Shown piece by piece: positions 42,187 to 56,669 of a DNA stretch of 64,000 bases. Below the pieces are notes generated by a model. It did no database searches. It worked only from the letters and a program-made list of their open reading frames with translations, and was not told the DNA's origin. The translations under genes were made by a program, and so were the position numbers. The DNA is from Paludibacter sp. Lineage in GTDB: Bacteria; Bacteroidota; Bacteroidia; Bacteroidales; Paludibacteraceae. Numbering within the stretch: the first letter of the stretch is position 1; each line of letters starts with the position of its first letter. The stretch covers positions 1 through 64,000 of the forward strand of contig JARLGX010000035.1 of assembly GCA_031292575.1 (NCBI GenBank). The letters run 5' to 3'.

Positions 42187-42441
42187 TTATAAGGCGCAAC
42201 CCCAAATTGAGGGCTCATCTGTTTCAATTTCTTCGTCTTGTTTTATCTCATGAAATCCACGTTCTGCAAGGGCTTCCGCAATTTTATCACGGGTTACTTC
42301 ATCAGTGTGGGTTACGACAACTCGTCCTTCAATTCGGTCCAACTCTACTTCAAATACACCTTGTAATGTTCCGAGTTGTTTTAAAACCCGATTGTTGCAA
42401 TCCATGCATTCATCTTTTGATACTAAAAAAGTGCTGTACAT
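42187..42441 (-). CDS. Heavy-metal-associated (HMA) domain protein
   Basis: 84-residue ferredoxin-like HMA protein with the metal motif CMDC (Cys12, Cys15) in the first loop, VFEVELDRIEGRVVVTHTDEV in the usual strand positions and a C-terminal extension ending CAL. Such proteins carry Cu+ or other soft metals, or serve as carrier domains. Here it lies between small membrane proteins and a thioredoxin in the sulfur operon, 4 bp after the DUF2892 gene, so soft-metal/thiol chemistry is the likely role. Confidence 0.82.
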   Translation of the reverse strand: MYSTFLVSKDECMDCNNRVLKQLGTLQGVFEVELDRIEGRVVVTHTDEVTRDKIAEALAERGFHEIKQDEEIETDEPSIWGCAL

Positions 42442-42960: not shown

Positions 42961-44127
42961 TTATAAACCTGGAATTCTTGGGAACTGCCCTACTTTTGTC
43001 ATTTTAGAATAAATTCCCCAGCTTTTTTTCATCCAATGTCCAAAAATTGGCATCGGAATCAAAATAGCCTTTTTACTGTTGCGTAAGACAAAAGCTGCTC
43101 CATCACCGGTATCCATTACACAAAGAATATTCAGATGTTCCTGATACCCTTTTAGCTTAGTGCCGCCCTTTTCAATCTGTTGAATATTATAAGCCACATT
43201 ACGTCCCATCATTTCAGCTATATGCCCTTGTTTGGCAACCCATTCCGGTCCTTCATAAGCCGCGGCATCACCAATAGCAAAAACATTTTTCACTTCAGGC
43301 ACCCGATTAAAATTATCTATTCTCACGAAACCTGCTTCAGAAAGAGGTAAATCACTATTTTTCAGGATGGAAGAACCTGTCCCCGCGGCTATAAACATAA
43401 TTAAATCCGATTCAAGTTTTGATTCATCTTCGAAAATTACGCCATCTTCCACAAATTCTACTATTTTTTTACCAAATCGCTTATGAATGTTCAGTTTTGA
43501 AAACATGCTGTTAATCATTTTCATTGCACCTTTTCCCATACGCGCTCCGGGTTCTTCCATGGGGGCAAAAAAAGTAAGTTCAAATTTGTCACCCAGGCCT
43601 TTTTTCTTCAGGTAATGTTGAATGTTGAACATTAATTCAAAAGCCGGTCCACCACGCACAGCCGATTTGTCTTTTGGATTTCCACCAAAGCCTATTGCAA
43701 TTTTTCCAGATCCCTTTTGAATCAACGAATCCAGTTTATCGCGTAGTTGAACACTCATTTCCGGTTTTCCACAAATACTCAGTGTGTTGTTTATGCCTTT
43801 ATGTTGAATTTTATCCGCACCAAAAGCCACCACCAAATAATCGTAATTTAAAACCTGACTTTCGCAAACGACCTGATTCTCAGAAGCTTTTATTCCGTTT
43901 ACTTTATCAATAATTAAATTGAATGGATATTTCTTTTGAATTTTTGATAGTGGTATTTTTACATCGTCAAATTCTTTTTCGTGAACAGGAATCCAAATTG
44001 AAATGGGATAAACAAACAAATAATCACGATCTGAAACCAATGTTACTTCAAATTGACTGTTTTTTTGCAATTCTATAGCTGTTTGCACACCGGCAAAGCC
44101 ACCTCCAAGTATCAGAACTTTTTTCAT
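42961..44127 (-). CDS. Sulfide:quinone oxidoreductase-like flavoprotein
   Basis: FAD protein of 388 residues related to sulfide:quinone oxidoreductase and type II NADH dehydrogenases. FAD motif LILGGGFAGVQTAIEL, second FAD motif VFAIGDAAAYEGPEWV and a C-terminal LCVMDTGDGAAFVLRN are seen. Cysteines are Cys88, Cys119 and Cys336. The segment SAVRGGPAFEL (about 155-165) occupies the place where true SQRs carry the first redox cysteine, and it has none. So sulfide oxidation is possible through Cys119/Cys336 but not assured. Confidence 0.8.
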   Translation of the reverse strand: MKKVLILGGGFAGVQTAIELQKNSQFEVTLVSDRDYLFVYPISIWIPVHEKEFDDVKIPLSKIQKKYPFNLIIDKVNGIKASENQVVCESQVLNYDYLVVAFGADKIQHKGINNTLSICGKPEMSVQLRDKLDSLIQKGSGKIAIGFGGNPKDKSAVRGGPAFELMFNIQHYLKKKGLGDKFELTFFAPMEEPGARMGKGAMKMINSMFSKLNIHKRFGKKIVEFVEDGVIFEDESKLESDLIMFIAAGTGSSILKNSDLPLSEAGFVRIDNFNRVPEVKNVFAIGDAAAYEGPEWVAKQGHIAEMMGRNVAYNIQQIEKGGTKLKGYQEHLNILCVMDTGDGAAFVLRNSKKAILIPMPIFGHWMKKSWGIYSKMTKVGQFPRIPGL

Positions 44128-44137
44128 AAATTATCAA

Positions 44138-44554
44138 TTATGCATTTTGAATTTCTTTCAGTAAAAAATCTTTTTGTTTAATCCCCACAAACCGCTTTAC
44201 TTCTTTGCCATTTTTGAAAAGAATAAGTGTTGGGATGCTACGGACTTTGAATTGTTGAGCAAGCGTTTTTTGTTGTTCAATGTTTATTTTTCCAATTTTC
44301 ATATTTCCAGTTAATTCATCAGCGATTTCATTTAAAACAGGAGCCATCATACGACAAGGAGCACACCACTCAGCCCAAAAATCGACTAAAACAACTTTCC
44401 CTTTGGTTTGTTGCTGAAAATTTTTAAATGAAAGAGTCAAAATCTCATTATGATCGGCGACTAAAGGTGTTTTCTTCATTTTAATTCTGGCATAGATATT
44501 CAGAAGTAAAAATGTGCCGATTAAAGTCCCAATAATTATAAGTGCCGTTTCCAT
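44138..44554 (-). CDS. Membrane-anchored thioredoxin
   Basis: 138 residues: an N-terminal transmembrane helix (about 3-21, METALIIIGTLIGTFLLLN) followed by a thioredoxin domain with FWAEWCAPCRMMAPVL (Cys64, Cys67) and cis-proline in RSIPTLILF. Unlike the thioredoxin at 41688 it is anchored by a helix; topology is not certain. It lies 10 bp upstream of the SQR-like gene and likely works with it at the membrane. Confidence 0.88.
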   Translation of the reverse strand: METALIIIGTLIGTFLLLNIYARIKMKKTPLVADHNEILTLSFKNFQQQTKGKVVLVDFWAEWCAPCRMMAPVLNEIADELTGNMKIGKINIEQQKTLAQQFKVRSIPTLILFKNGKEVKRFVGIKQKDFLLKEIQNA

Positions 44555-44591
44555 ATCAATTTATTATTTAATTACTTCAATATCTATATAA

Positions 44592-46883
44592 TTAACGTCT
44601 CGACATCATTTGCATTATACCTCCACCATTTCTCACATTCGTGAAACCCAGTTGCTGTAATATCCGTTGAGCATAGGCCGAGCGTGCACCTGATGCGCAA
44701 TAAACTATTATATCTCTTGAATGACTTCCAAATTTATTTATGTGCATTTGTATCTCATCCAATGGAATATTGATTGCTCCCGGATAAGCTCCACCGGCAA
44801 ATTCTTGTGCTGTACGTACATCTACTATGATTGGTTCATTTGAAGTACTGGTTGTAGTTGTTGTCGCAGCTGCAGGTTTTGAATTCCTGCGTGCCATCAT
44901 GGATCCAAGTCCTCCACCGTTTTTCACGTTTTCATACCCAATTTGCATCAACATTCGTTGTGCGTAAGCCGAACGTGCACCCGAAGCACAATAAACTGTA
45001 ATTTCCCTCGCTCCATTATTTCCGAGTTCTTCGTATCGTTGCATCAACGAGTCCAATGGGATATTAACTGCATCGGGATATGCACCCGCTCTGAACTCTT
45101 CAGGTGTACGTACATCTACAACAATTGGGGAGTTAAAATCAACAGCCTGTTCGGTGGTTGTTTGATCGCCCTTTTCTTCCTCTTCATTTATCGATTTTGA
45201 TTCAATGGGCAATAAATCAATATTTATATTTTTAAATCCAATGGCACGAGCATAACGTTGTAATGAAGTATGTCCACCCGAGATATTCGTTACATCTTTG
45301 AAACCAGCTCCTAAAAGTGTACGAAGTGCCTGATGACCTTTTTTCCCTGTTTCGTCATAAATAATAGTCGGACGATTGGATGGCAATGAATTTATTTCCT
45401 GCAACAATAATTCAAGCGGTAAATGAATTGCTCCTTTGATATGGCTTTTTTCGAATGCAAAGACATCTCGAACATCAACAAACAATGGATTTTTACCTTC
45501 TACAAAGTTGTCAAGTTCCGAAACCGTTATAGAAGGGCTGAAGCCCGACATTTTGTTTTCGGCGGTGTAGGCAGCCATATTAATGGCATCGTTGGCAGTT
45601 CCGATTGGTGGCGAATAAGCAAAATCTACATCGGCAATATCGTGTATAGTCAATTTTGCAGCTGTTGCAGTTGCTATAATATCGAGCCGTTTGTCAGCGC
45701 CTTTGTATCCTGCAGTTTGTCCGCCAAGAATGACTCCTGTTTCACGATCGTAAACCAATAAGGCTGTAACTGTTTCTGCACCTGGATAATATGAAGTATG
45801 GTGTTCTTTATGAACCACCACTGCATCTGCATCCATTCCCAACATTCTGGCTTGTTTCAGTGATAAACCGGTAGTTCCGGCAACCGCTTCAAAAACACGA
45901 ACAACCGAAGTACCCAACGCGCCTTTGTAAACATGACTGCCACCCAATGCATTTTCAGCTGCAATTCTGCCTTGTCTGTTAGCTGGACCTGCAAGCGGAA
46001 TACGAACTTTTTTGCCATTCACACGGTGTTCAATTTCAACCATATCGCCGGCTGCAAATATATCAGGGTCATTAGTTTGCAATTGTGCATTTACAAGCAA
46101 GCCACCGGCTTCACCCAATTCAAGTCCGGCATCTTTAGCAAGCTGCAAGGTTGGACGAACTCCAATCGAAAGCAACACCATGTCTGCTTCAATTATTTTG
46201 CCGTTATCCAGTTTCACTGCTTTGTGCGTTATTTCAGTAACACCTGTACTTGTATGAATACCTACTCCGTATGATAGGAGTTCATTTTCAATAAATCCGG
46301 CTGTTTCGCCTTCCATAATTGCCATTACGTGAGGCATCATTTCTATAACGTTGACATTTAAACCTCGTTTTACCAATGCTTCCACCATTTCCAGACCAAT
46401 AAATCCACCACCAACTACCACTGCATTTTTTGGCTTCTTTTCATCCAGATGTTTGGCAATTTTGTCCATATCTTCCAACGTCCAAAGCGTGAAGACATGA
46501 TCGTAATCAGCTCCGGGCAATGTTGGTGTGATTGGACGACCGCCTTGTGCTAAAATTAGTTTGGTGTATTCAAATGTCTTTTGAGTACCGCTTTCTGAGT
46601 TTATCGTTTTAATTTGATGTCCGATTCTGTAAATTGCCGATACTTTGGTGTTTACATACACATTTACATCGTATTGTTCTTTGAAACTTTCAGGGCTTTG
46701 CAAAATCAGTTTCGATCTGTTTTTAATATCTCCACCAATGAAATATGGTAATCCGCAATTGGCAAATGAAATATCGGGGCCTGCTTCAAGCATTGTTATT
46801 TCAGCATCGGGTGAAATCCGACGGACTTTAGCTGCGGCTGTTGCACCTGCTGCAACTCCGCCTATTATTACAATCTTTTCCAT
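44592..46883 (-). CDS. CoA-disulfide-reductase-like enzyme with three rhodanese domains
   Basis: 763 residues. Residues 1-445 are a CoA-disulfide reductase/NADH polysulfide reductase (VIIGGVAAGATAAAK; active Cys43 in FANCGLPYFIGG; NAD motif VVVGGGFIGLEMVEAL; FAAGDMVE). The first rhodanese unit (about 455-565) has YDETGKKG where a Cys loop is expected, so it is inactive as a sulfurtransferase. Units 2 (about 585-670) and 3 (about 680-763) both have YCASGARSAYAQR and NGGG endings and are recent duplicates. The carrier units probably hand persulfide to the CoA site. Confidence 0.92.
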   Translation of the reverse strand: MEKIVIIGGVAAGATAAAKVRRISPDAEITMLEAGPDISFANCGLPYFIGGDIKNRSKLILQSPESFKEQYDVNVYVNTKVSAIYRIGHQIKTINSESGTQKTFEYTKLILAQGGRPITPTLPGADYDHVFTLWTLEDMDKIAKHLDEKKPKNAVVVGGGFIGLEMVEALVKRGLNVNVIEMMPHVMAIMEGETAGFIENELLSYGVGIHTSTGVTEITHKAVKLDNGKIIEADMVLLSIGVRPTLQLAKDAGLELGEAGGLLVNAQLQTNDPDIFAAGDMVEIEHRVNGKKVRIPLAGPANRQGRIAAENALGGSHVYKGALGTSVVRVFEAVAGTTGLSLKQARMLGMDADAVVVHKEHHTSYYPGAETVTALLVYDRETGVILGGQTAGYKGADKRLDIIATATAAKLTIHDIADVDFAYSPPIGTANDAINMAAYTAENKMSGFSPSITVSELDNFVEGKNPLFVDVRDVFAFEKSHIKGAIHLPLELLLQEINSLPSNRPTIIYDETGKKGHQALRTLLGAGFKDVTNISGGHTSLQRYARAIGFKNINIDLLPIESKSINEEEEKGDQTTTEQAVDFNSPIVVDVRTPEEFRAGAYPDAVNIPLDSLMQRYEELGNNGAREITVYCASGARSAYAQRMLMQIGYENVKNGGGLGSMMARRNSKPAAATTTTTSTSNEPIIVDVRTAQEFAGGAYPGAINIPLDEIQMHINKFGSHSRDIIVYCASGARSAYAQRILQQLGFTNVRNGGGIMQMMSRR

Positions 46884-46918
46884 ATATTTAATATCCTATT
46901 TTTAACTAATACTTTTTA

Positions 46919-47308
46919 TTACTTCTGAACGGGTAAATTGTTTCCTTCCCAACCCGGAAAACCATCCATCATTTGGTAAATTGTCTTGAAACCACTTTGC
47001 ATCATATGTGTAACGGCGATTCCACTTCGGTGATTGGTACGGCAATATACAATGTATTTGGCCGTGCGGTTGAGTTTATCAATTTTGCTAAATGCTTCCG
47101 GTTGGCGTATGTCTATATTTTTAGCGCCTTTAATGTGTCCACCGATATATTCTTCGGCCGACCGCACATCCAATACAATATACTTACTATCTTTTTGAAG
47201 CAGGCTGTAAACTTGTTTAGAACTTACTTCAATTTTATTTTGAGCCTGAAGGCTGTAAAATGTTGTGAGGAATAGAACAAATACAGACAATAAAATTTTA
47301 TTTTTCAT
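46919..47308 (-). CDS. Secreted single-domain rhodanese
   Basis: 129 residues with a signal peptide ending LQAQ and a rhodanese domain with YIVLDVRSAEEYIGGHIKGA and the active-site loop YCRTNHRSG (Cys89). It would carry persulfide or polysulfide sulfur in the periplasm. Position is directly before the triple-rhodanese enzyme (35 bp) and after a small membrane protein, all in the same operon. Confidence 0.88.
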   Translation of the reverse strand: MKNKILLSVFVLFLTTFYSLQAQNKIEVSSKQVYSLLQKDSKYIVLDVRSAEEYIGGHIKGAKNIDIRQPEAFSKIDKLNRTAKYIVYCRTNHRSGIAVTHMMQSGFKTIYQMMDGFPGWEGNNLPVQK

Positions 47309-47328
47309 AAATTATTTATTTAATTAAA

Positions 47329-47532
47329 TTACTTTTTGTTCCAGGTATTAATTCCGAAAGGAAGATACAAAGGACAAAATCTGATTAATCCGGTGAGAAT
47401 GAAAACTACTGCCAACACAAGTAGCACAATGGCTAAAGTTCCGGTAATGACATGTGCAAAATATAATCCGATAATAACTACAGCTATCAGTATTCGGGCT
47501 GCCCTGTCGATAATTCCTACATTTTTCTTCAT
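47329..47532 (-). CDS. DUF2892 (YgaP-like) small membrane protein
   Basis: 67-residue two-helix membrane protein: MKKNVGIIDRAARILIAVVI, TGTLAIVLLVLAVVFILTGLIRFCPLYLPFGIN, given in parts. The final GLIRFCPLYLPFGINT with one conserved Cys is the DUF2892 signature. In YgaP this domain is fused to rhodanese; here it is encoded next to a separate rhodanese gene (20 bp), consistent with a split version of the same pair. Confidence 0.88.
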   Translation of the reverse strand: MKKNVGIIDRAARILIAVVIIGLYFAHVITGTLAIVLLVLAVVFILTGLIRFCPLYLPFGINTWNKK

Positions 47533-47562: not shown

Positions 47563-48834
47563 TTAGTTTAATTCTTTTGATATTGTAATTGCTGCAATAG
47601 TTCCATCGGCCACTGCCGTGGTTATTTGACGATATTTTTTGCTGATTATATCCCCAATGGCAAATACATCGGGAATACTTGTTTTCATATCTTCATCGGC
47701 AAGAATGTATCCCCACGAATTCATTTTAGGAAGATTTTTACCCAAGACATCAACATTCGATTTAAAGCCGATAAACACGAAAACCCCGTCTGATTCTAAT
47801 TTTTCTAACTTCTTAGTTTTCAGGTTTTCCAATGTTGCAACCATTTTGTCTCCTCGTTTTTCAAATTTACGTGGTTCGTGTTCGTACATCACTTTTATTT
47901 TCTCATTGGCTTGAAGTTGTTCAATGGCAGTTTGGTTGGCCGTGAGTTTATCAAACTGATGAATCATGGTTACTTTGCTTGCAAATTTAGTGATGAACAG
48001 TGCTTCTTCCACAGCTGAGTTTCCACCACCTATAACCGTAACTTCTTTGTCTACAAAGTATTTGGCATCGCAAGTGGCACAGTAGGAAATTCCTTTTCCT
48101 TTGTATTCTTTTTCTCCCGGAGCATTCATCGTATTTGGTGTTGTTCCGGTGGCAATTATTATTTTTTTAGCTCTTATTGTTTCAAGTTCGTCAATAACAA
48201 TTTCTCTTTTGTGTAAATCTACCGAAGTAATATCTACTGCAACTTTAAAATCAATGCCTGTATGTTTGGCTTGTTCGCTCATATAATGTGCTAACATGTA
48301 ACCGGGCTGTGGTTGTTCAAATCCCGGATAATTAGAAACTTGATGTGTAATACCCATATATCCGCCTGGCAAAGCAGGATCGATTAATACAGTTTTGATT
48401 TTAGCCTGACCAAGATAAATTCCGGCAGTCAATCCGGCAGGTCCACCGCCCAAAATAGCTACATCATATTCCGAAACGATTGGTTTTTGATTGGTTTTAA
48501 TTGTTTTTACATCATCATCAGAAAGCATAGCATCTAAACGTTGTTGAATCTCAGATTTTTTTATTCCACCACTGATAGAATCAGTTATCTGCTTTCCATT
48601 ATCAAAAAACAATAAAGTTGGCGATGAACTAACGCCGAGTTCGGTTGCAAGTTCCCGATTACCCTGTCGGAAAACTTTTAAAAATTTTATTTTTCCCCCA
48701 TAAAGTTCAGCCATGGCTTCAAATTTTGGAGCTAGTGCTTCACAAGGTGGACATTCAGTTGAATAAAAATCGACTACAACTTTACCTCCGTTCACAACTT
48801 CATTTTCGAAGTCAACTGTATTAATTTCTCTCAT
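47563..48834 (-). CDS. Thioredoxin-thioredoxin reductase fusion
   Basis: 423 residues. Residues 1-105 are a thioredoxin with FYSTECPPCEALAP (Cys28, Cys31; CPPC) and the cis-proline in SSSPTLLF. Residues 120-423 are a thioredoxin-reductase-like flavoprotein with VAILGGGPAGLTAGIYL, YCATCDAKYF (CATC redox pair), VTVIGGGNSAVEEALF and a C-terminal VFAIGDIISKKYRQITTAVADG. In the known mycobacterial fusion the order is reductase then thioredoxin; here the thioredoxin comes first. It lies 27 bp after the radical SAM gene. Confidence 0.93.
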   Translation of the reverse strand: MREINTVDFENEVVNGGKVVVDFYSTECPPCEALAPKFEAMAELYGGKIKFLKVFRQGNRELATELGVSSSPTLLFFDNGKQITDSISGGIKKSEIQQRLDAMLSDDDVKTIKTNQKPIVSEYDVAILGGGPAGLTAGIYLGQAKIKTVLIDPALPGGYMGITHQVSNYPGFEQPQPGYMLAHYMSEQAKHTGIDFKVAVDITSVDLHKREIVIDELETIRAKKIIIATGTTPNTMNAPGEKEYKGKGISYCATCDAKYFVDKEVTVIGGGNSAVEEALFITKFASKVTMIHQFDKLTANQTAIEQLQANEKIKVMYEHEPRKFEKRGDKMVATLENLKTKKLEKLESDGVFVFIGFKSNVDVLGKNLPKMNSWGYILADEDMKTSIPDVFAIGDIISKKYRQITTAVADGTIAAITISKELN

Positions 48835-48861: not shown

Positions 48862-50166
48862 TTATAAATCATTTAAATAATATGCTGCTCCCAATGATAA
48901 AAGTTCTTTAATCGGGCGACAATCGGGCGAATTTGGATGCCCGTTTTTGTTTTTGGCTACCGAGGCACAACCTCCACCACAAGCTAATGCAACGTCGCAG
49001 GTTTTACATTTTTCAATAGTTGTAATATCACGGTTTTGCCAGCTTTCAATGGCTGTTTCATTTTTTGTAACTTCGGGATAAAATGTTCCAAGCTCGTCAC
49101 CCTTATTTCCAACAGTGGCGGTACAAGAATAAATTGTTCCGGTAAAGTCAAATGCCCATTCGGTTTTGCAAGCCGGACACGAATCGAATAACGCCATAGG
49201 CAATTCTTCATGTTCCGAAATATATTTGGCTATTGAGAAAGCCGGTTTATAGAATTCTGCAATATAAGGATGTACTTTTAGCAATTCGTATAAATGTTGG
49301 TACAAGGTTGCACGGTCAAAAAGTTTCTCAGGCGTGCTGTTGCAAAAATGCAATTCGTAGTTTCGCCCTATTTGAGTTTTGAAAAATGGTGACTTTGTCC
49401 ATCCTTTATCAATTGCAAAACGTGAAAGATCAGCTAAGTTTGATATATTTTCTTTATCAATCACCATGCGAAGGTTGATATTAATTCCAGCTTCCAAACA
49501 GGCATCAACTCCTTCTACAATTCGGTCGAAAGTTGGTTGTTTTCCTTTCAAATACCGTCGACCATCATGTACTTCCTGCGTTCCATCCAGCGTAACTTGT
49601 ACTTCGCGGATGCTGGCTGTTTTAAGCAGATCAACATAAGAAGTCAAGGTGTAACCATTTGTTACAAAGGCCACATCAAGTTTAGCCTCGTTGGATTTAT
49701 TCAATAAATGAGTAATCATTTGGCGTTGATTTTCGCCTGGCAGTAATGGCTCACCACCAAAAACTGTAATATATTTTCGCCGACCGGCAAATTCTGTTTT
49801 TATATAATCAAAAAAAGCATCAATAATCTCTGTACTAACTACTTTTTGTACTGGATTATAACCTTCCTGGTAACAATAAGAACAGGCAAAATTGCAGGAA
49901 TAATTTGGCACAAAAAATAATTGAGTTTCATCGGCTTCGCGCTTCTCGGTAAAATCGAGGTAAGCCAATTTAAAAGCACGCTTTTCTTTTTCTTCATCAA
50001 CCAAATAGCCATGGCGGGCAAAATCGCCGTTTGGATCAAGTTGGTGTTTCAACATCTTGACTTCGTTTGGACTTATTATATCTGCAGATTTACTCAACGG
50101 ATTGACAATAAGAAAAGCTTCTGAATCTTTAATCGGAGTGATTATGTTGTGTTTAGATATAGACAT
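48862..50166 (-). CDS. Radical SAM/SPASM peptide-maturase-like protein
   Basis: 434 residues. The radical SAM motif is CNFACSYC (Cys91, Cys95, Cys98) in NYSCNFACSYCYQEGYNP, followed by YITVFGGEPLLPG and VTLDGTQEVHDGRR. The C-terminal SPASM-type region has Cys330, 333, 348, 387, 390, 396, 400 and 416, enough for two auxiliary [4Fe-4S] clusters. The first 85 residues (no motif) could be a RiPP recognition-like region but are not proven to be. The gene directly upstream encodes a 34-residue Cys-rich peptide, its likely substrate. Anaerobic sulfatase-type maturases are the alternative, but no sulfatase is here. Confidence 0.9.
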   Translation of the reverse strand: MSISKHNIITPIKDSEAFLIVNPLSKSADIISPNEVKMLKHQLDPNGDFARHGYLVDEEKEKRAFKLAYLDFTEKREADETQLFFVPNYSCNFACSYCYQEGYNPVQKVVSTEIIDAFFDYIKTEFAGRRKYITVFGGEPLLPGENQRQMITHLLNKSNEAKLDVAFVTNGYTLTSYVDLLKTASIREVQVTLDGTQEVHDGRRYLKGKQPTFDRIVEGVDACLEAGININLRMVIDKENISNLADLSRFAIDKGWTKSPFFKTQIGRNYELHFCNSTPEKLFDRATLYQHLYELLKVHPYIAEFYKPAFSIAKYISEHEELPMALFDSCPACKTEWAFDFTGTIYSCTATVGNKGDELGTFYPEVTKNETAIESWQNRDITTIEKCKTCDVALACGGGCASVAKNKNGHPNSPDCRPIKELLSLGAAYYLNDL

Positions 50167-50200
50167 TTTAATTGATTTGTTTGATTAAAATTTGAAATTA

Positions 50201-50234
50201 GCTATTGCCGGAAAATTTCTTTTCCTGCAATAGC
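50201..50234 (-). promoter_or_regulatory. Stem-loop between the Cys-rich peptide and the radical SAM gene
   Basis: 15-bp stem with one mismatch and a 4-nt loop: gctattgccggaaaa (50201-50215) and ttttcctgcaatagc (50220-50234), plus strand. It starts 16 bp after the peptide's stop codon and ends 35 bp before the next start. On the minus strand the following bases are only moderately T-rich (taatttcaaatttt), so it fits a partial terminator or 3'-protecting hairpin. Confidence 0.75.
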
Positions 50235-50249
50235 CTTTTTTTAAGTAAC

Positions 50250-50354
50250 TTAGTCGTGACAACCAGCTACAATGATCGAAACTTTAGCGCAACATTGTGC
50301 AACTTTTGCTTCGTTGCTGTGGCAACCACAGCTTTTTTTCACTACACTTTTCAT
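50250..50354 (-). CDS. 34-residue Cys-rich peptide, candidate RiPP precursor
   Basis: Complete small ORF (ATG at 50354, TAA at 50250-50252). It contains five cysteines (9, 11, 21, 22, 32) and two histidines (12, 33) in SCGCHS (8-13), QCCAK (20-24) and AGCHD (30-34), after a basic start MKSVVKKS. There is no signal peptide and no recognised leader. It lies 60 bp after the ArsM-like gene and 83 bp before the radical SAM/SPASM gene, which fits a RiPP substrate. A metal- or persulfide-binding peptide is the alternative. Confidence 0.7.
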   Translation of the reverse strand: MKSVVKKSCGCHSNEAKVAQCCAKVSIIVAGCHD

Positions 50355-50414
50355 TTATTTTTGATTTTAGTTGTGAATAAAACCACCAACCTATAAAAGA
50401 TTAGCGGTGTTTTT

Positions 50415-51076: not shown

Positions 51077-51159
51077 CAAAGATAATTATTCTATTTTAAA
51101 TTACAATAGTATCACTAATAAATTATTATAGTATCACTAATAAATTTTTATTATCTTTG
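51077..51159. promoter_or_regulatory. Divergent promoter with 19-bp direct repeat
   Basis: On minus a box TATCTTTG (complement of 51077-51084) serves the ArsM-like gene; on plus TATCTTTG at 51152-51159 serves the zinc-ribbon gene. Between them atagtatcactaataaatt occurs twice without a mismatch at 51106-51124 and 51128-51146, a 22-bp period (about two helical turns). Each copy contains TAGT-ATC-ACTA, a small dyad. This is the layout of a two-site operator. Confidence 0.75.
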
Positions 51160-51199: not shown

Positions 51200-51628
51200 A
51201 TGATATTTAAAGAAGATATATCGCCAGAGCTTGCCAAGGAATTATTTGAAGACAGCGAAAAAGTTTTGAAATTTATTGCTGAAATTAAATGGAATGATAG
51301 TTTTGTGTGCAGAAAATGTGGACATACAAACTTTTGTGAAGGCAAATCACCGTCATCGCGTCGTTGTACACGCTGCAAAACTGAGGAATCAGCCACTGCG
51401 CACACCTTGTTTCATAATTGCAAATTTCCGATAAACAAAGCTTTTTATATTGCTTATCAGGTTTGTGTGGAAGGAAAAGATATATCGTCTTACGAATACT
51501 CCGATCAACTGGGTTTAAATCAAATGACTTGTTGGAAGTTTCGCAAACGAATTAAAAACTGTGTAATCAAAAACGGTGCAGACACAAAGAGTGTTACAAT
51601 TCAGAAGATTTTATTGACTGATTTTTAA
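51200..51628 (+). CDS. Stand-alone IS1595-type zinc-ribbon protein
   Basis: 142 residues with the transposase zinc ribbon of IS1595/ISXO2-type elements (CRKCGHTNFCEG with CTRCKTEESATAHTLFH) followed by a helical DNA-binding-like segment (KAFYIAYQVCVEGKDISSYEY, GLNQMTCWKFRKRIK). The protein stops there; the DDE/DinG catalytic domain of a full transposase is absent, and no inverted repeats or remnant follow. It either is a decayed insertion sequence or a domesticated regulator; its own promoter and the operator repeats favour the latter. Divergent from the sulfur operon. Confidence 0.75.
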   Translation: MIFKEDISPELAKELFEDSEKVLKFIAEIKWNDSFVCRKCGHTNFCEGKSPSSRRCTRCKTEESATAHTLFHNCKFPINKAFYIAYQVCVEGKDISSYEYSDQLGLNQMTCWKFRKRIKNCVIKNGADTKSVTIQKILLTDF

Positions 51629-51649: not shown

Positions 51650-52327
51650 TTATCCATTTTGACTTATTAATTGCAAAGATTTTTTATTGACGATTTCAAT
51701 CTGTTTCCCTGTTATTTTTATAATTCCATCTTTGTCAAATTCAGTCAAAACCCGACTTACACTTTCACGGCTGGTATCTATAAGATTAGCAAACTCTCCC
51801 TGCGAAAGAGGTAAAAGAAATATATCAGATTTAAAAATATTATCAGAAAATTCTAATAGCGCATCCGCCATATTGCCTCGAATCAGTTTTTGAGTTCGGT
51901 TAGCACATCTATGGAATGATTCCAGTTCATTTTTACAAAATTCCCGTATTATCTCTCTCGTAAATTCCCTGTTTTCATCTAAGATATTCTGAAAAACCTC
52001 TAAATCGATAAAACAAACTTCTACTTCAGAAACAGCAGTAACTGAATATTGATTTATTTTACTTCCGAAAGTTGTTGGCAAACCTAAATAACTTGGTGCA
52101 TTTACAAGCTTCACAATCTGTTCGTTATAAGGCCCTTCTAAATGAATTTTTGCCAGTCCAGTGCGCAAAAATATAACATTGGTAGAATATGTTCCCTGTT
52201 TAATAATAGAATCTCCTTTTTTCAACTTAAGCTCCAAGTGGTTTGAAGTAAGTTGATCCAGACTGCATTCACTCAGTTTGGATGTTGCCTTGGTTTTAAA
52301 CGGACAATTTCTACAATCGTTTTGCAT
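51650..52327 (-). CDS. Crp/Fnr-family transcriptional regulator
   Basis: 225 residues: a cNMP-binding/Fnr sensor fold and the HTH SQGEFANLIDTSRESVSRVL. Cys5, Cys8 and Cys21 near the N-terminus, with Cys105 (EVEVCFIDLE), could hold an oxygen-labile iron-sulfur cluster as in Fnr, though the spacing (C-x2-C-x12-C) differs from that of Escherichia coli Fnr. It is transcribed away from the DsrE2-TusA-Hdr operon and shares a promoter region containing a CRP-type palindrome. Signal could be oxygen, redox or sulfide. Confidence 0.9.
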   Translation of the reverse strand: MQNDCRNCPFKTKATSKLSECSLDQLTSNHLELKLKKGDSIIKQGTYSTNVIFLRTGLAKIHLEGPYNEQIVKLVNAPSYLGLPTTFGSKINQYSVTAVSEVEVCFIDLEVFQNILDENREFTREIIREFCKNELESFHRCANRTQKLIRGNMADALLEFSDNIFKSDIFLLPLSQGEFANLIDTSRESVSRVLTEFDKDGIIKITGKQIEIVNKKSLQLISQNG

Positions 52328-52487: not shown

Positions 52488-53054
52488 ATGGAAAACACAC
52501 AAGAAGTTACAATCCAAGAATTACAAACTCAACTGGATGCGTTAAAAAAGAAAGTAGGTAAACTTGAAAAAAACCGCAAAGATCAATTATCAATGGCAGT
52601 AGTTTCAGGTGATATGGATAAAATCCTTGCCACAATGATTATTTCATTGGCAGCTGCAGCAATGGATACTCAAGTGAAACTTTTCTTTTCATTTTGGTCA
52701 CTTTCAGCATTGCGTGATCCTAAAAAATCACCAAAAGGAAAAGATTTTATTTCAAAAATGTTCGGCTTGATGTTACCGAGAGGTAAAAATAAACTTGCTT
52801 TATCAAACATGAACATGGCTGGAATGGGACCAATGATGATTAAAATGCTGATGAAAAAGAAAAACGTAATGTCATTGGATGAAATGTTCAAACAAGCTGG
52901 TGAATTGGGTATTGAGATAACTATATGCGAAATGTCAATGGATTTGATGGGTTTCAAAAAAGAGGAATTTATTGATTATCCTAATCTTCGCTTTGCTGGT
53001 GCCGCAACTTTTGTGGCTGATGCAGGTGAAAGTGCAATGCAAATGTTCATTTAA
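52488..53054 (+). CDS. DsrE2-like sulfur carrier protein
   Basis: 188-residue DsrE-superfamily protein. An N-terminal coiled coil (about 5-32) precedes a DsrE fold with MAVVSGDMDKILATMIISLAAAAM, LFFSFWSLSALRD and the carrier cysteine Cys147 in ITICEMSMDLMGF, the only Cys in the protein. DsrE2-type proteins accept persulfide sulfur from rhodaneses or TusA and occur with TusA in sulfur oxidisers. The tusA gene is 36 bp downstream, and the Hdr-like complex follows. Confidence 0.92.
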   Translation: MENTQEVTIQELQTQLDALKKKVGKLEKNRKDQLSMAVVSGDMDKILATMIISLAAAAMDTQVKLFFSFWSLSALRDPKKSPKGKDFISKMFGLMLPRGKNKLALSNMNMAGMGPMMIKMLMKKKNVMSLDEMFKQAGELGIEITICEMSMDLMGFKKEEFIDYPNLRFAGAATFVADAGESAMQMFI

Positions 53055-53090
53055 AAAAAATATAAAATAAACAATTCATTTTAAAAAATT

Positions 53091-53339
53091 ATGGCAACAG
53101 ATTTAAAAAGTTTAAAATCAGATTTAGTAGTTGATGCTCGTGGAACAGCTTGTCCTGGACCACTTTTGGCCGCAAAAAAAGCAATTGGTGAAATAGAATC
53201 AGGAGAAATTATGGAAATTCTTTCAGCAGACGAAGGAACTAAAAATGATATTCCACGATGGTGCGAAAAGGTAGGTCATGAATATCTTGGTTTCTACGAC
53301 GAAGATAGCTTCAGCCGTTTATTTTTAATCAAAGAGTAA
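53091..53339 (+). CDS. tusA: TusA-family sulfur carrier
   Basis: 82-residue sulfur carrier with the family motif ARGTACPGPLL; Cys21 carries the persulfide. KAIGEIESGEIMEILSADEGTKNDIPRWCEKVGHE has the typical order of TusA. It likely hands sulfur between rhodaneses, DsrE2-like protein and the Hdr-like complex, and possibly MnmA. Directly after the DsrE2-like gene. Confidence 0.95.
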   Translation: MATDLKSLKSDLVVDARGTACPGPLLAAKKAIGEIESGEIMEILSADEGTKNDIPRWCEKVGHEYLGFYDEDSFSRLFLIKE

Positions 53340-53340
53340 A

Positions 53341-53457
53341 AAACACGACCCATAACCCCTAAAGGGGAGTTCAATTACTTTCGTCTTAAGTATTTTTATA
53401 GATATAAATTTGTAGATGGTTGTAATTCAGTTCCCCTTAAGGAGCTAGGGTTGTTTT
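53341..53457. repeat. Imperfect inverted repeat (cccctaaagggg family)
   Basis: Left arm 53341-53377 (cgaccc.taacccctaaaggggagttcaatta) and right arm 53423-53457 (taattcagttcccctta.ggagctagggttgtttt) form a long imperfect hairpin in the gap between tusA and the MvhD-like gene. Another copy of the same repeat type lies at 58869-58930. Confidence 0.7.
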
Positions 53458-53469
53458 AAATTAATACTT

Positions 53470-53886
53470 ATGGCAACTCAAAATAAATCTCCAGAACTTA
53501 AATCTCCTAAGATTCTAGTTTTCTCCACCGATAAAATATCCGACCCGGGAATTGATCAGGCAGGTTTGAGAAAAATTCATTATGCTCCCTACGTTTATGT
53601 TATCAACTTACCATGTTCCTCAGGTATCAAGCCGAGATGGATTTTACATGCGTTAGAAAATGGCTTCGATGGGGTTTTCATTGCAGCCGATGGGCACGAA
53701 TGTTCCTTTAGCGCACGTTGTCCGGATCACACAAATACCATTGTGGAAACAACTCAGGAACTCTTGAAAGAGAAAAATATTAATCCCAGACGTGTGCGTA
53801 TGGCGGCAGTTTGCTCAGTTTGTGCGGAACCATTTGTCAGCCACATGGAAAATTACGGGAAAATTTTAGCTGGATTAGAAGACTAA
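53470..53886 (+). CDS. MvhD/FlpD-like iron-sulfur subunit
   Basis: 138-residue electron-transfer protein of the MvhD/FlpD/QmoB-tail family, which passes electrons to HdrA. It has the cysteines of the family core: Cys49 in NLPCSSGIKPRW, Cys78 and Cys84 in GHECSFSARCPDH, and Cys115/Cys118 in VCSVCAEPF. The N-terminal FxCxWC motif of MvhD is absent, replaced by VFSTDKISDPG, so cluster content may differ. In sulfate-reducer QmoB this domain is fused to HdrA; here it is separate, 5 bp before the HdrA-type gene. Confidence 0.88.
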   Translation: MATQNKSPELKSPKILVFSTDKISDPGIDQAGLRKIHYAPYVYVINLPCSSGIKPRWILHALENGFDGVFIAADGHECSFSARCPDHTNTIVETTQELLKEKNINPRRVRMAAVCSVCAEPFVSHMENYGKILAGLED

Positions 53887-53891
53887 ATATT

Positions 53892-56669
53892 ATGAAACAA
53901 GATAAAAATTACGATGCATTAGTCATCGGAGGTGGAATTGCAGGTCAGGAAGCAGCGTTAAGCCTTGCCGATATGGGTCATGAAGTTTTATTGGTTGACA
54001 AAGGTTTATCAATTGGTGGAAAAATGATTCAGTTGAGTAAAGTGTTTCCTACGTTGGACTGTGCGGCCTGTATTACTACACCGAAAATGTCAGAAACTGC
54101 ACGCCATCCCAAGATAACATTAATGCTTAACAGTGAAATTAAAGGGATTAATAAAGAGGGCGATGATTTCAATGTTGAGATTGCCAAAAAACCCCGATAT
54201 ATTGTTGCTGAAGATTGTACCGGTTGTGCTGAATGTGAAGCGGTTTGTCCCGAAGTGCGCAAAGATGAGTATAATGCCGATTTAGCAGGCCGGAAAGTGG
54301 CTTACATTCCGTTCAACCTTGCCAATCCGCGAATTGCCACGATTGACCGTCAGGATCATTCTGCTCCATGTATCAATGAATGTCCCGGTGGTGTAAAACC
54401 TTATGGTTATATTACTTTGGTACGCAACGGTCAGTACGAAGAGGCCATGAAGCTTCATTTAGAAGATATTCCTTTTCCCGGAAGTTTGGGTCGTGCCTGC
54501 TATGCTCCTTGCCAGAATGCCTGTACACGTGCGAGCCTGGAAGGTTCAGTAGATATTCGTAAAACCAAACGCTTTTTTGCCGATTGGTATTACGAAAAAT
54601 ATCCCGAAGCTCCCGAAGTGGAAATTAAAAATAAAACCGACAAAAAAATTGCAGTTATCGGCTCGGGTCCTGCCGGAATTACTGCAGCTTATCATTTAGC
54701 TTTAAAAGGTCATAATGTGACAATTTTCGAAGCTGCTCCAGCTGCCGGAGGTATGTTACGTTTGGCTTTACCCGAATACCGCGCACCAAAAAATGTGGTA
54801 GATAGGGATTTGAAAAATATTACTGTTCTTGGCGTTAAGATTGAAGTAAACAAAAGAATTACCGATCTGAAAGCTTTGAAAGCTGAAGGGTATGATGCAG
54901 TATTTGTTTCCGTTGGAACGCATGATGCAGTAACTTCTAAGACCGAAGGTTCCGATTTGAAAGGTATTGTTGATTGTCTTGAATTCCTTCGTGAAGCCAA
55001 CATTGGTAAAAAGGAAGATCTAACCGGAAAACGTGTTATGGTGATAGGTGGTGGAAATACAGCCATTGATGCTGCCCGTACTTCATTGCGACTCGGTGCT
55101 GAAAAAGTAATCGTGGTTTATCGTCGTAGCCGTGAAGAAATGCCGTGTTTTGCTCCCGAAATTCACGAAGCGGAAGAAGAAGGCGTTGAAATAATGATTC
55201 TCCGTAATCCGGTAAAATACATTGGCGAAAATGGTAAAATCAAACAAGTGCAATTGGTAAAAATGCAATTGGGCGAAAAAGATGCAAGCGGTCGCCGCAG
55301 TCCTGAACCTGTAAAAGGTTCGGAATACATCGAAAATGTGGATTATGTAATCGAAGCTATCGGCTTGAAACCATCTACAAAACCTTTTGCCGGACAAATT
55401 GATTTAAATAAAAACGGAACGATTGTAGCCGATAAAAAAACACTCCAAACTTCTGTAGACTATATTTTCGCAGGTGGCGATAACGTTACCGGAGCTACAA
55501 CTCTGATTGAAGCTGCCGGACAAGGTAAAAAAGCCGCTTTCTATATGGACAAATACCTTCGTGGTTTAAATATGCTTGATTTTGAAGATGGCGACAAACT
55601 GCCGGCAATTGATAAAGAAAAAGTATTAAGAGAATACGATGGCAAAATTAAACCAGCAATTCCAAGTGATATGATGCCTTTGGCACAACGTGCCAGAAGT
55701 TGGGAAGAAGTAGAACAAACTTATACCGAACAGGAAGTAAAAGCCAATACCGAGCGTTGTCTGGATTGCAGTAATTGTCGCGAATGTCACCAATGTGTGG
55801 CTGCCTGTCCTTCGAATGCAATTGATTTTAAACAAAAAACTCAAGTTGTCAATACAACCGTGAAATCGGTGGTGGTTACAACAGGTTATAAATTGTTTCC
55901 ACCGGCTGGAAAACCGAACTACGGTTACGCCAAATATGCCAACGTGATTGATTCCATGCAAATGGATCGTCTGATTGCACCGACTCGTCCGTTCAACAAT
56001 GTTCTTCGTCCCGGTGATGGTAAAACACCGGATAATATCGCTTATGTGCTTTGTACAGGTTCGCGTGATTCGGCTATTGAAAACTCCGGTTGCGGTGCCG
56101 ATTGTGAAAACAATCCGATTTGTTCGCAGATTTGCTGTATGTATTCCATTAAGCAGGCTCAACTTTTAATGGGTGCATTGCCAATGGCTGATATCACTAT
56201 TTATTACATGGATATACGTGCATTTGGTAAAGGTTACGAAGAATTCTTCCAGGAATCGAAATCAATGGGCGTGAACTTTGTAAAAGGGAAAGTGGCAAAA
56301 ATTCGTGAAAATGAAAATGGCAGCGGTGACCTTATCATTCGTTATGAAGATGTTACCAAAGGTGTGGTAAAAGAAGCAAAACATGATGTGGTCGTACTTT
56401 CAGTGGGCGTTGTTCCAAATAAAAATGTTCCTGAAATGTTTAAAAATCAGTTGTTGGAACTGGATGATTTTAATTTCGTGAAACAAACCGATGAATTGAT
56501 TAATCCTGCTTTAACAAGTATCGAAGGAGTTTTCGTTGCCGGAGCGGCTTCAGGTCCAAAAGATATTCCTGACTCCATTTTGTCTGCCGGATGTGCGGCT
56601 TCAGAAGTTGATGGTTATCTTAATAGAGTGAGTAGTTCATCAAAGAGTTTCACTCTTGCTAAAAATTAA
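53892..56669 (+). CDS. HdrA/QmoA-like flavoprotein with embedded GltD/NfnB-type NAD(P)H module
   Basis: 925 residues. 1-120: HdrA start with ALVIGGGIAGQEAALSLAD, Cys57/Cys60 in DCAACIT, and a [4Fe-4S] motif CTGCAECEAVC (Cys109, 112, 115, 119). About 155-560: a GltD-like insert with Cys160/164 and 203/207/211, a second FAD motif IAVIGSGPAGITAAYHLALKG (252-272, partly quoted) and an NAD(P)H motif VMVIGGGNTAIDAAR (382-396). 620-925: ferredoxin Cys623, 626, 629, 632, 635 and 639, then the HdrA C-half with CGADC...CSQICC. It probably couples NAD(P)H to ferredoxin, thiol or quinone, possibly by electron bifurcation. Confidence 0.92.
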   Translation: MKQDKNYDALVIGGGIAGQEAALSLADMGHEVLLVDKGLSIGGKMIQLSKVFPTLDCAACITTPKMSETARHPKITLMLNSEIKGINKEGDDFNVEIAKKPRYIVAEDCTGCAECEAVCPEVRKDEYNADLAGRKVAYIPFNLANPRIATIDRQDHSAPCINECPGGVKPYGYITLVRNGQYEEAMKLHLEDIPFPGSLGRACYAPCQNACTRASLEGSVDIRKTKRFFADWYYEKYPEAPEVEIKNKTDKKIAVIGSGPAGITAAYHLALKGHNVTIFEAAPAAGGMLRLALPEYRAPKNVVDRDLKNITVLGVKIEVNKRITDLKALKAEGYDAVFVSVGTHDAVTSKTEGSDLKGIVDCLEFLREANIGKKEDLTGKRVMVIGGGNTAIDAARTSLRLGAEKVIVVYRRSREEMPCFAPEIHEAEEEGVEIMILRNPVKYIGENGKIKQVQLVKMQLGEKDASGRRSPEPVKGSEYIENVDYVIEAIGLKPSTKPFAGQIDLNKNGTIVADKKTLQTSVDYIFAGGDNVTGATTLIEAAGQGKKAAFYMDKYLRGLNMLDFEDGDKLPAIDKEKVLREYDGKIKPAIPSDMMPLAQRARSWEEVEQTYTEQEVKANTERCLDCSNCRECHQCVAACPSNAIDFKQKTQVVNTTVKSVVVTTGYKLFPPAGKPNYGYAKYANVIDSMQMDRLIAPTRPFNNVLRPGDGKTPDNIAYVLCTGSRDSAIENSGCGADCENNPICSQICCMYSIKQAQLLMGALPMADITIYYMDIRAFGKGYEEFFQESKSMGVNFVKGKVAKIRENENGSGDLIIRYEDVTKGVVKEAKHDVVVLSVGVVPNKNVPEMFKNQLLELDDFNFVKQTDELINPALTSIEGVFVAGAASGPKDIPDSILSAGCAASEVDGYLNRVSSSSKSFTLAKN

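Follow-up and report, generated by a model that had tools for sequence, protein, structure and literature searches.

A near-invariant peptide encoded with a radical SAM/SPASM protein and an ArsM-like methyltransferase looks like a peptide cofactor in a Paludibacter sulfur operon

Judged from their sequences, the genomes examined encode a small peptide, an ArsM-like methyltransferase and a radical SAM/SPASM protein all together or not at all, apart from cases in which a contig is cut. The window, by which we mean the whole 64-kb stretch of Paludibacter sp. DNA that was analysed, carries all three genes (Table 1). The trio is very probably a RiPP-type system, and the peptide has the look of a cell-made peptide cofactor not described before. 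We give a probability of about 0.5 to the full mechanism, in which the product would be a thiol-peptide cofactor inside the cell, with a cross-link introduced by the radical SAM enzyme through a chemistry that we infer, and would serve sulfide and persulfide handling. What sets the system apart is a nearly invariant core held in a fixed trio with its maturase and the methyltransferase across environmental Bacteroidota. In one group the trio lies under the same operator as persulfide-handling genes, which raises the question of what the core becomes and whether it carries sulfur or arsenic. The answer would also assign a function to a set of ArsM-like methyltransferases, which could otherwise be taken for arsenite methyltransferases.

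The peptide ORF (50250-50354 on the minus strand) starts with ATG and codes for MKSVVKKSCGCHSNEAKVAQCCAKVSIIVAGCHD. Direct reading confirmed the description given in the initial annotation, namely an intact 105-bp ORF with Cys at positions 9, 11, 21, 22 and 32 and His at positions 12 and 33, as well as the gap of 83 nt that separates it from the radical SAM gene, which starts at 50166. Taken alone, the ORF is unremarkable for its Cys content and the evidence is comparative: at least five Cys are found in 3 of the 389 ORFs of 25-45 aa in the window, and the ORF is raised above chance because of the conservation of its core. Neither the NCBIfam nor the Pfam models matched the peptide at E 0.01, and the best NCBIfam match of 48 of its relatives (E 0.04) was to an unrelated family. 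A literature search with the letters of the core matched only a snake-venom paper.

Table 1. Features of the peptide locus, with positions in the window.
Feature	Position	Strand	Remarks
Precursor peptide gene	50250..50354	(-)	34 aa; full-length relatives in 77/80 loci
Peptide residues 1-7, conserved start, proposed recognition part of the leader	50334..50354	(-)	Role inferred
Peptide residues 8-18, variable linker with the non-conserved C9 and C11	50301..50333	(-)	
Peptide residues 19-34, core AQCCAKVSIIVAGCHD	50253..50300	(-)	11/16 positions invariant in 78/78 copies
Radical SAM/SPASM peptide maturase, 434 aa	48862..50166	(-)	Pfam Radical_SAM 80.6 bits; NCBIfam neighbours; alignment
Maturase residues 1-78, N-terminal domain, proposed leader-binding (RRE-like)	49933..50166	(-)	AlphaFold model; domain name inferred
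Maturase residues 330-416, SPASM region with eight invariant Cys	48919..49179	(-)	Alignment
ArsM-like methyltransferase, 207 aa	50415..51038	(-)	Upstream of peptide
RNA hairpin in the peptide-maturase gap	50200..50235	(-)	z -5.67 against dinucleotide shuffles
Thioredoxin/thioredoxin-reductase fusion	47563..48834	(-)	Pfam, NCBIfam; family in 75/80 loci
Remainder of the same-direction run: YgaP-like membrane protein, rhodanese, CoA-disulfide reductase with three rhodanese domains, thioredoxin, Pyr_redox_2 flavoprotein	42961..47532	(-)	
CoA-disulfide reductase fused to three rhodanese domains	44592-46883	(-)	
Operator copy 1, TTAGTGATACTATTGTAATT	51099..51118	(-)	
Operator copy 2, two mismatches	51121..51140	(-)	22 bp upstream of copy 1
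TATCTTTG, Bacteroidota-type -7 element	51077..51084	(-)	
Divergent 142-aa zinc-ribbon protein, IS1595 N-terminal type, candidate regulator	51200..51628	(+)	Pfam Zn_ribbon_IS1595 28.5 bits; role inferred

Scanning genome contigs with the radical SAM protein yielded 188 loci, of which the best 80 (L004-L083; maturase identity 55-90%) were kept. According to the taxon labels of the MAG records, nearly all of these belong to Bacteroidota groups, the others being one Spirochaetales, one Kapaibacterium and one plain 'uncultured bacterium'. A complete peptide ORF lies upstream of the maturase in 77 of these best 80 of 188 loci. Loss or decay of the peptide where the maturase is kept, named earlier as the finding that would speak against the pairing, was looked for and not seen. 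The three loci with no complete peptide nearby (L036, L038 and L056) belong to genomes that all encode a complete peptide elsewhere, so that the whole-genome search ruled out its loss; in L056 the final peptide codons sit at the contig end. Two of the loci, L043 and L057, are copies on contigs that share one assembly prefix.

Alignment of the 78 peptide copies (the window and the 77 related loci) revealed that the final 16 residues follow the pattern AQCCAKxSxxxxGCHD, Asp being the terminal residue of every copy. Pairwise comparison of the core gave a non-synonymous rate lower than the synonymous one in 3002 of 3003 pairs, which are not independent, with a median ratio of 0.127. The start is exactly MKS[LV][VI]KK in 52 of the 78 copies, and it is joined to the core by a linker of 8-16 residues among the relatives. 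The conserved start, the variable linker and the invariant core therefore constitute a leader/core layout, where none had been recognised before; the gene encodes a ribosomal precursor with a leader part and a conserved core, as expected of a RiPP. The weight formerly placed on all five Cys has to be shifted to the three that are conserved. C9, C11 and H12 fall in the variable part and were rejected as functional residues, as 50 of the 78 leaders contain no Cys, whereas 27 contain two and 1 contains one.

The three genes travel together. Among 200 family genomes, a sample that is not independent of the 80 loci since many genomes are the same records, and counted without phylogenetic correction, 26 carry peptide, methyltransferase and maturase, 172 carry none of them and 2 hold partial sets at contig ends. 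The maturase and peptide profiles each detected 27 of the 200 genomes, 26 in common; the exceptions are G454, with a maturase fragment near a contig end (L107), and G474, in which a fragment of the maturase stands at the start of a contig. The methyltransferase profile (E up to 1e-50) detected the same 27 genomes as the peptide profile. In the phylum sample of 296 genomes, five have the maturase, and the same five have the peptide. Three weak peptide matches in that sample (E 0.007-0.009) were judged to be chance, one (L094) because a longer frame continues past GCHD and two (L095 and L096) because they have no visible core of this kind.

The nearest upstream ORF of at least 90 aa is the methyltransferase in 63 of the 74 loci showing one, and a thioredoxin-like gene, so named by resemblance, lies between methyltransferase and peptide in 8 others; L008 has a cut methyltransferase, and L041 and L052 make up the remainder. 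In a MAG, the methyltransferase is split into two ORFs (L071:1748-2310), perhaps by sequencing error or decay. A complete peptide follows the methyltransferase in all three genomes with the maturase located elsewhere (L097-L099). A dedicated modifying enzyme is encoded with the precursor, and the co-occurrence supports the earlier view that the peptide is a candidate new RiPP precursor, probably matured by the radical SAM/SPASM protein.

The maturase has the radical SAM motif CNFACSYC (C91, C95 and C98) and, at its C-terminus, C330, C333, C348, C387, C390, C396, C400 and C416. These Cys, reported initially as CxxxCxxC and eight C-terminal Cys, proved to be invariant in 39 aligned rows. Its closest NCBIfam families are peptide maturases, namely CefB (134.8 bits), TIGR04463 (134.5), PapB (123.6) and Clo7bot (122.7), whose models each match all 39 maturase members; their cut-offs lie at 340-600, and none of the 25 models listed reached its cut-off with the window maturase. 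In the AlphaFold model (mean pLDDT 79, some segments below 50), three strands and three helices precede the barrel, and we predict from this model that they form a leader-binding domain. The solved structure that best matches the model is the thioether-forming CteB (TM 0.66, rmsd 8.1). A phage or plasmid origin of the maturase was considered and rejected, the 6 plasmid and 4 phage records that match it doing so at just 24-28.5% identity. It is very unlikely that the peptide works as an unmodified small thiol protein while the radical SAM protein has some other substrate. The distance between the two genes, about 9.6 kb on one contig in one of the three genomes with a displaced maturase, would fit such independence, but their strict co-occurrence, the action of the closest maturase families on peptides, and the conserved N-terminal motif of the peptide beside a predicted domain of the leader-binding type all argue against it.

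The system differs from each of its closest known counterparts. CefB and TIGR04463, maturases with Cys-rich precursors, gave the best NCBIfam scores, yet their cut-offs of 600 and 525 were missed and, unlike their precursors, the window peptide has no Cys at every fifth position, its core containing C-C and one more Cys. The SPASM maturase PapB, of the ranthipeptide system PapA/PapB, is also among the closest profiles, but the score of the window maturase is far under the PapB cut-off of 340. CteB, of the SCIFF ranthipeptide system CteA/CteB, is the best match among solved structures in both fold and sequence; however, the window maturase scores 77.2 of the 425 bits set for SCIFF maturases and the core is not of the six-Cys type. 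Few RiPPs have housekeeping roles, PQQ and mycofactocin being the cofactors of this kind. As in these, an almost fixed core is paired with a SPASM enzyme, and their products are kept for redox chemistry; the window core, however, is not a Tyr core like theirs, no Tyr being conserved, and the maturase scores 63.8 of the 265 bits set for mycofactocin maturases. To our knowledge no RiPP has a thiol-cofactor role in sulfide oxidation or persulfide transfer, and a literature search found neither anything like the peptide nor a RiPP with such a role in sulfide or persulfide handling.

On the minus strand, the methyltransferase, peptide and maturase genes are followed, in this order, by the thioredoxin-thioredoxin reductase fusion, the YgaP-like protein, the rhodanese, the CoA-disulfide reductase, the thioredoxin and the Pyr_redox_2 flavoprotein, with intergenic gaps of 10-37 nt from the maturase onward. 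The three-gene system sits inside what would be a sulfide/persulfide operon. A small protein resembling, by eye, a heavy-metal-associated domain is encoded in the same-direction run (42187-42441, minus strand). On the other side, a plus-strand run coding for DsrE2-like, TusA and FlpD proteins and a large flavoprotein with ferredoxin domains (52488-56669) adjoins the operon as a second sulfur-transfer/heterodisulfide-reductase-like run. A survey of flanks of up to 4 kb, with names given partly by resemblance, found 12 gene families recurring in at least 10 of the 80 loci. The thioredoxin-reductase fusion family, in 75 of them, is encoded on the same strand with a median start 1410 nt after the maturase start; other recurring neighbours, named from single members, are DUF302 (32 loci), DUF1847 (29), thioredoxin (26) and DUF6132 (26). 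The genus was compared on the 34 of its 48 genomes with known system status (23 with, 11 without). A close ortholog of the CoA-disulfide reductase/rhodanese occurs in 21 of the 23 genomes with the system, two of these orthologs being cut, versus 4 of the 11 without (P = 0.0017, uncorrected for phylogeny or incomplete genomes), and lies on the same contig as the system in 15 of the 21.

Two tandem operator copies directly precede TATCTTTG, a -7 element so named on what we take to be the Bacteroidota-type consensus; 0.02 operator matches are expected by chance in the window. When up to 2 mismatches were allowed in the 500 nt before the methyltransferase, an operator site was found in 21 of 28 Paludibacter-type loci (0 of 28 for the reversed control), and in just 1 of 38 other loci (control 0), so that the regulatory sulfur link covers the Paludibacter-type group only. 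The tandem operator also occurs in L163, L166, L170, L180, L181 and L187. In relatives it precedes CoA-disulfide reductase/rhodanese genes, a thioredoxin, a rhodanese-DUF1847-thioredoxin run and a weakly SQR-like gene (in L181; 39 of 525 bits). It precedes sulfur genes even where these and the peptide lie on different contigs (G442, G438 and G478). In 12 relatives hand-picked among genomes with the system, 10 had operator sites, 26 in total: 11 before the operon (9 genomes), 12 before sulfur genes and 3 elsewhere, context having been viewed directly for 11 of the 26 and assigned by coordinates for the other 15; the reversed operator gave 5 sites in the same relatives. That the operator is a common promoter was rejected: its own genome has two sites at up to 2 mismatches, both at this locus, and two more at 3. 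Hence the initial guess of a persulfide role gains from the operator shared with sulfur genes in Paludibacter-type genomes, but this argument does not extend to the loci outside.

We propose the following mechanism. The N-terminal domain of the maturase would bind the MKS[LV][VI]KK end of the peptide, and the enzyme would form a thioether in the core, most simply from C32 to the C-terminal D34, locking the tail. In none of the 78 copies does the core contain an acidic residue other than D34, which lies two residues after C32. PMC9413430 reports that PapB joins Cys-Xn-Asp with n of 0-6 and not the reverse order; the window core, too, has a Cys followed by a later Asp. A C32-D34 thioether, with C21 and C22 left free, is therefore predicted; this link is a guess within a reasoned class, drawn by analogy, and one choice among several. 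With the vicinal C21-C22 as free thiols, the product would be a small dithiol carrier that stays inside the cell and is kept reduced by the neighbouring thioredoxin/thioredoxin-reductase fusion. The hairpin between the peptide and maturase genes would provide more peptide than enzyme. Among the operon's flavoproteins, rhodaneses and persulfide reductase, the carrier may accept or pass on sulfane sulfur or some other thiol-loving species, and the methyltransferase may act on the peptide or on its cargo. More tentatively, the product may act in sulfide oxidation and persulfide transfer as a low-molecular-weight thiol cofactor that is encoded in the genome. In this pathway it would be the ribosomal equivalent of glutathione or coenzyme A, served by a maturase, a methyltransferase and a reductase of its own.

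The methyltransferase is the part of the trio that may point elsewhere. In this METHYLTRANSFERASE, CCLSCGGA, C110 and C160 are common to 24 aligned members (the window and 23 of 70 loci). The window protein aligns with solved ArsM at E 1e-27 to 1e-28, C22, C110 and C160 falling on C72, C174 and C224, positions counted along the alignment, which we take to be the arsenic ligands. It shares with ArsM the fold and the three Cys positions, and no other protein of its genome matches the arsenite methyltransferase model strongly (next 41 bits). The retention of these Cys would point away from a sulfur mechanism, and an arsenic role is the main rival of the thiol-cofactor reading. A three-Cys core would bind As(III) as an S3 site and hand it to the methyltransferase for methylation, thioredoxin and its reductase would regenerate the enzyme, and the peptide would replace glutathione as arsenic carrier; that the methyltransferase never occurs without the peptide in the 200 genomes is in line with this. 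We nevertheless consider an arsenic or metalloid system rather unlikely. Unlike ArsM, the window protein is 207 aa long, always accompanies a RiPP-type peptide and scores 180 bits where the model cut-off is 263; any arsenic activity is putative. Moreover, arsenic as first choice is weakened because no arsenic gene was noticed among the neighbour families recurring in at least 10 of the 80 loci, named only partly by profile, and because Acr3 does not track the system: it exceeds its cut-off in 20 of the 23 genus genomes with the system versus 7 of the 11 without (P = 0.18, without phylogenetic correction), a weak test because Acr3 is nearly universal in the genus (over cut-off in 41 of 48). Finally, the operator precedes sulfur genes, and an arsenic gene stands behind it at 0 of the 23 non-stray sites in the 12 chosen relatives.

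The methyltransferase adjoins the peptide even where the maturase is elsewhere (3/3 genomes), which is also compatible with an enzyme that tailors the peptide. The methylated product might then be a chelator or chaperone for copper, zinc or iron, or a signal, and not a sulfur carrier; the Cys, His and Asp at the end of the core could bind metal. This is improbable in our view, as no metal transporter or metalloregulator was seen among the families found in at least 10 of the 80 loci, and the shared operator indicates a link to sulfur.

Many radical SAM RiPPs are exported antimicrobials. Single-enzyme radical SAM clusters are, moreover, common in Bacteroidales according to a RiPP survey (PMC10352776), in which under-represented families such as Paludibacteraceae appear without a radical SAM area of interest. 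Export of the product, as a bacteriocin or another secreted RiPP, is nonetheless hardly credible here, for the core is almost invariant across many families, the peptide is tied to sulfur genes, and the 12 families recurring in at least 10 of the 80 loci (flanks of up to 4 kb, names partly by resemblance) include no peptidase and no ABC exporter. The initial annotation had seen neither a protease nor an exporter in the window and had favoured an intracellular, cofactor-like role over a bacteriocin; the near-invariant core and the recurring families support this role, although a peptidase that removes the leader may be encoded elsewhere. It had overlooked the ArsM-like methyltransferase, the thioredoxin/thioredoxin-reductase fusion, the operator and the peptide-maturase hairpin.

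This hairpin was also found in 6 of 9 relatives when scored against dinucleotide shuffles. Across the loci, scored with 40 mononucleotide shuffles each, peptide-maturase gaps of 40-260 nt gave z < -2 in 40 of 50 loci (25/25 Paludibacter-type and 15/25 others), compared with 18 of 57 methyltransferase-peptide gaps. The peptide-maturase gap is shorter than 40 nt in 22 loci and longer than 260 nt in five, and the hairpin is missing or the gap short in many loci outside the Paludibacter type. Stems viewed in different loci have unlike sequences. The simplest reading is a partial terminator or an RNA end that raises the peptide above the enzyme. A second terminator-like hairpin (z -5.2) lies between methyltransferase and peptide in the window (50382-50408, minus strand). 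Beyond the operator, where a Crp-like protein (51650-52327) is also encoded, the divergent zinc-ribbon protein consists of only the zinc-ribbon/N-terminal part of an IS1595 transposase. Its family occurs in 28 of the 80 loci, always on the strand opposite to the operon, and the protein is perhaps a domesticated regulator.
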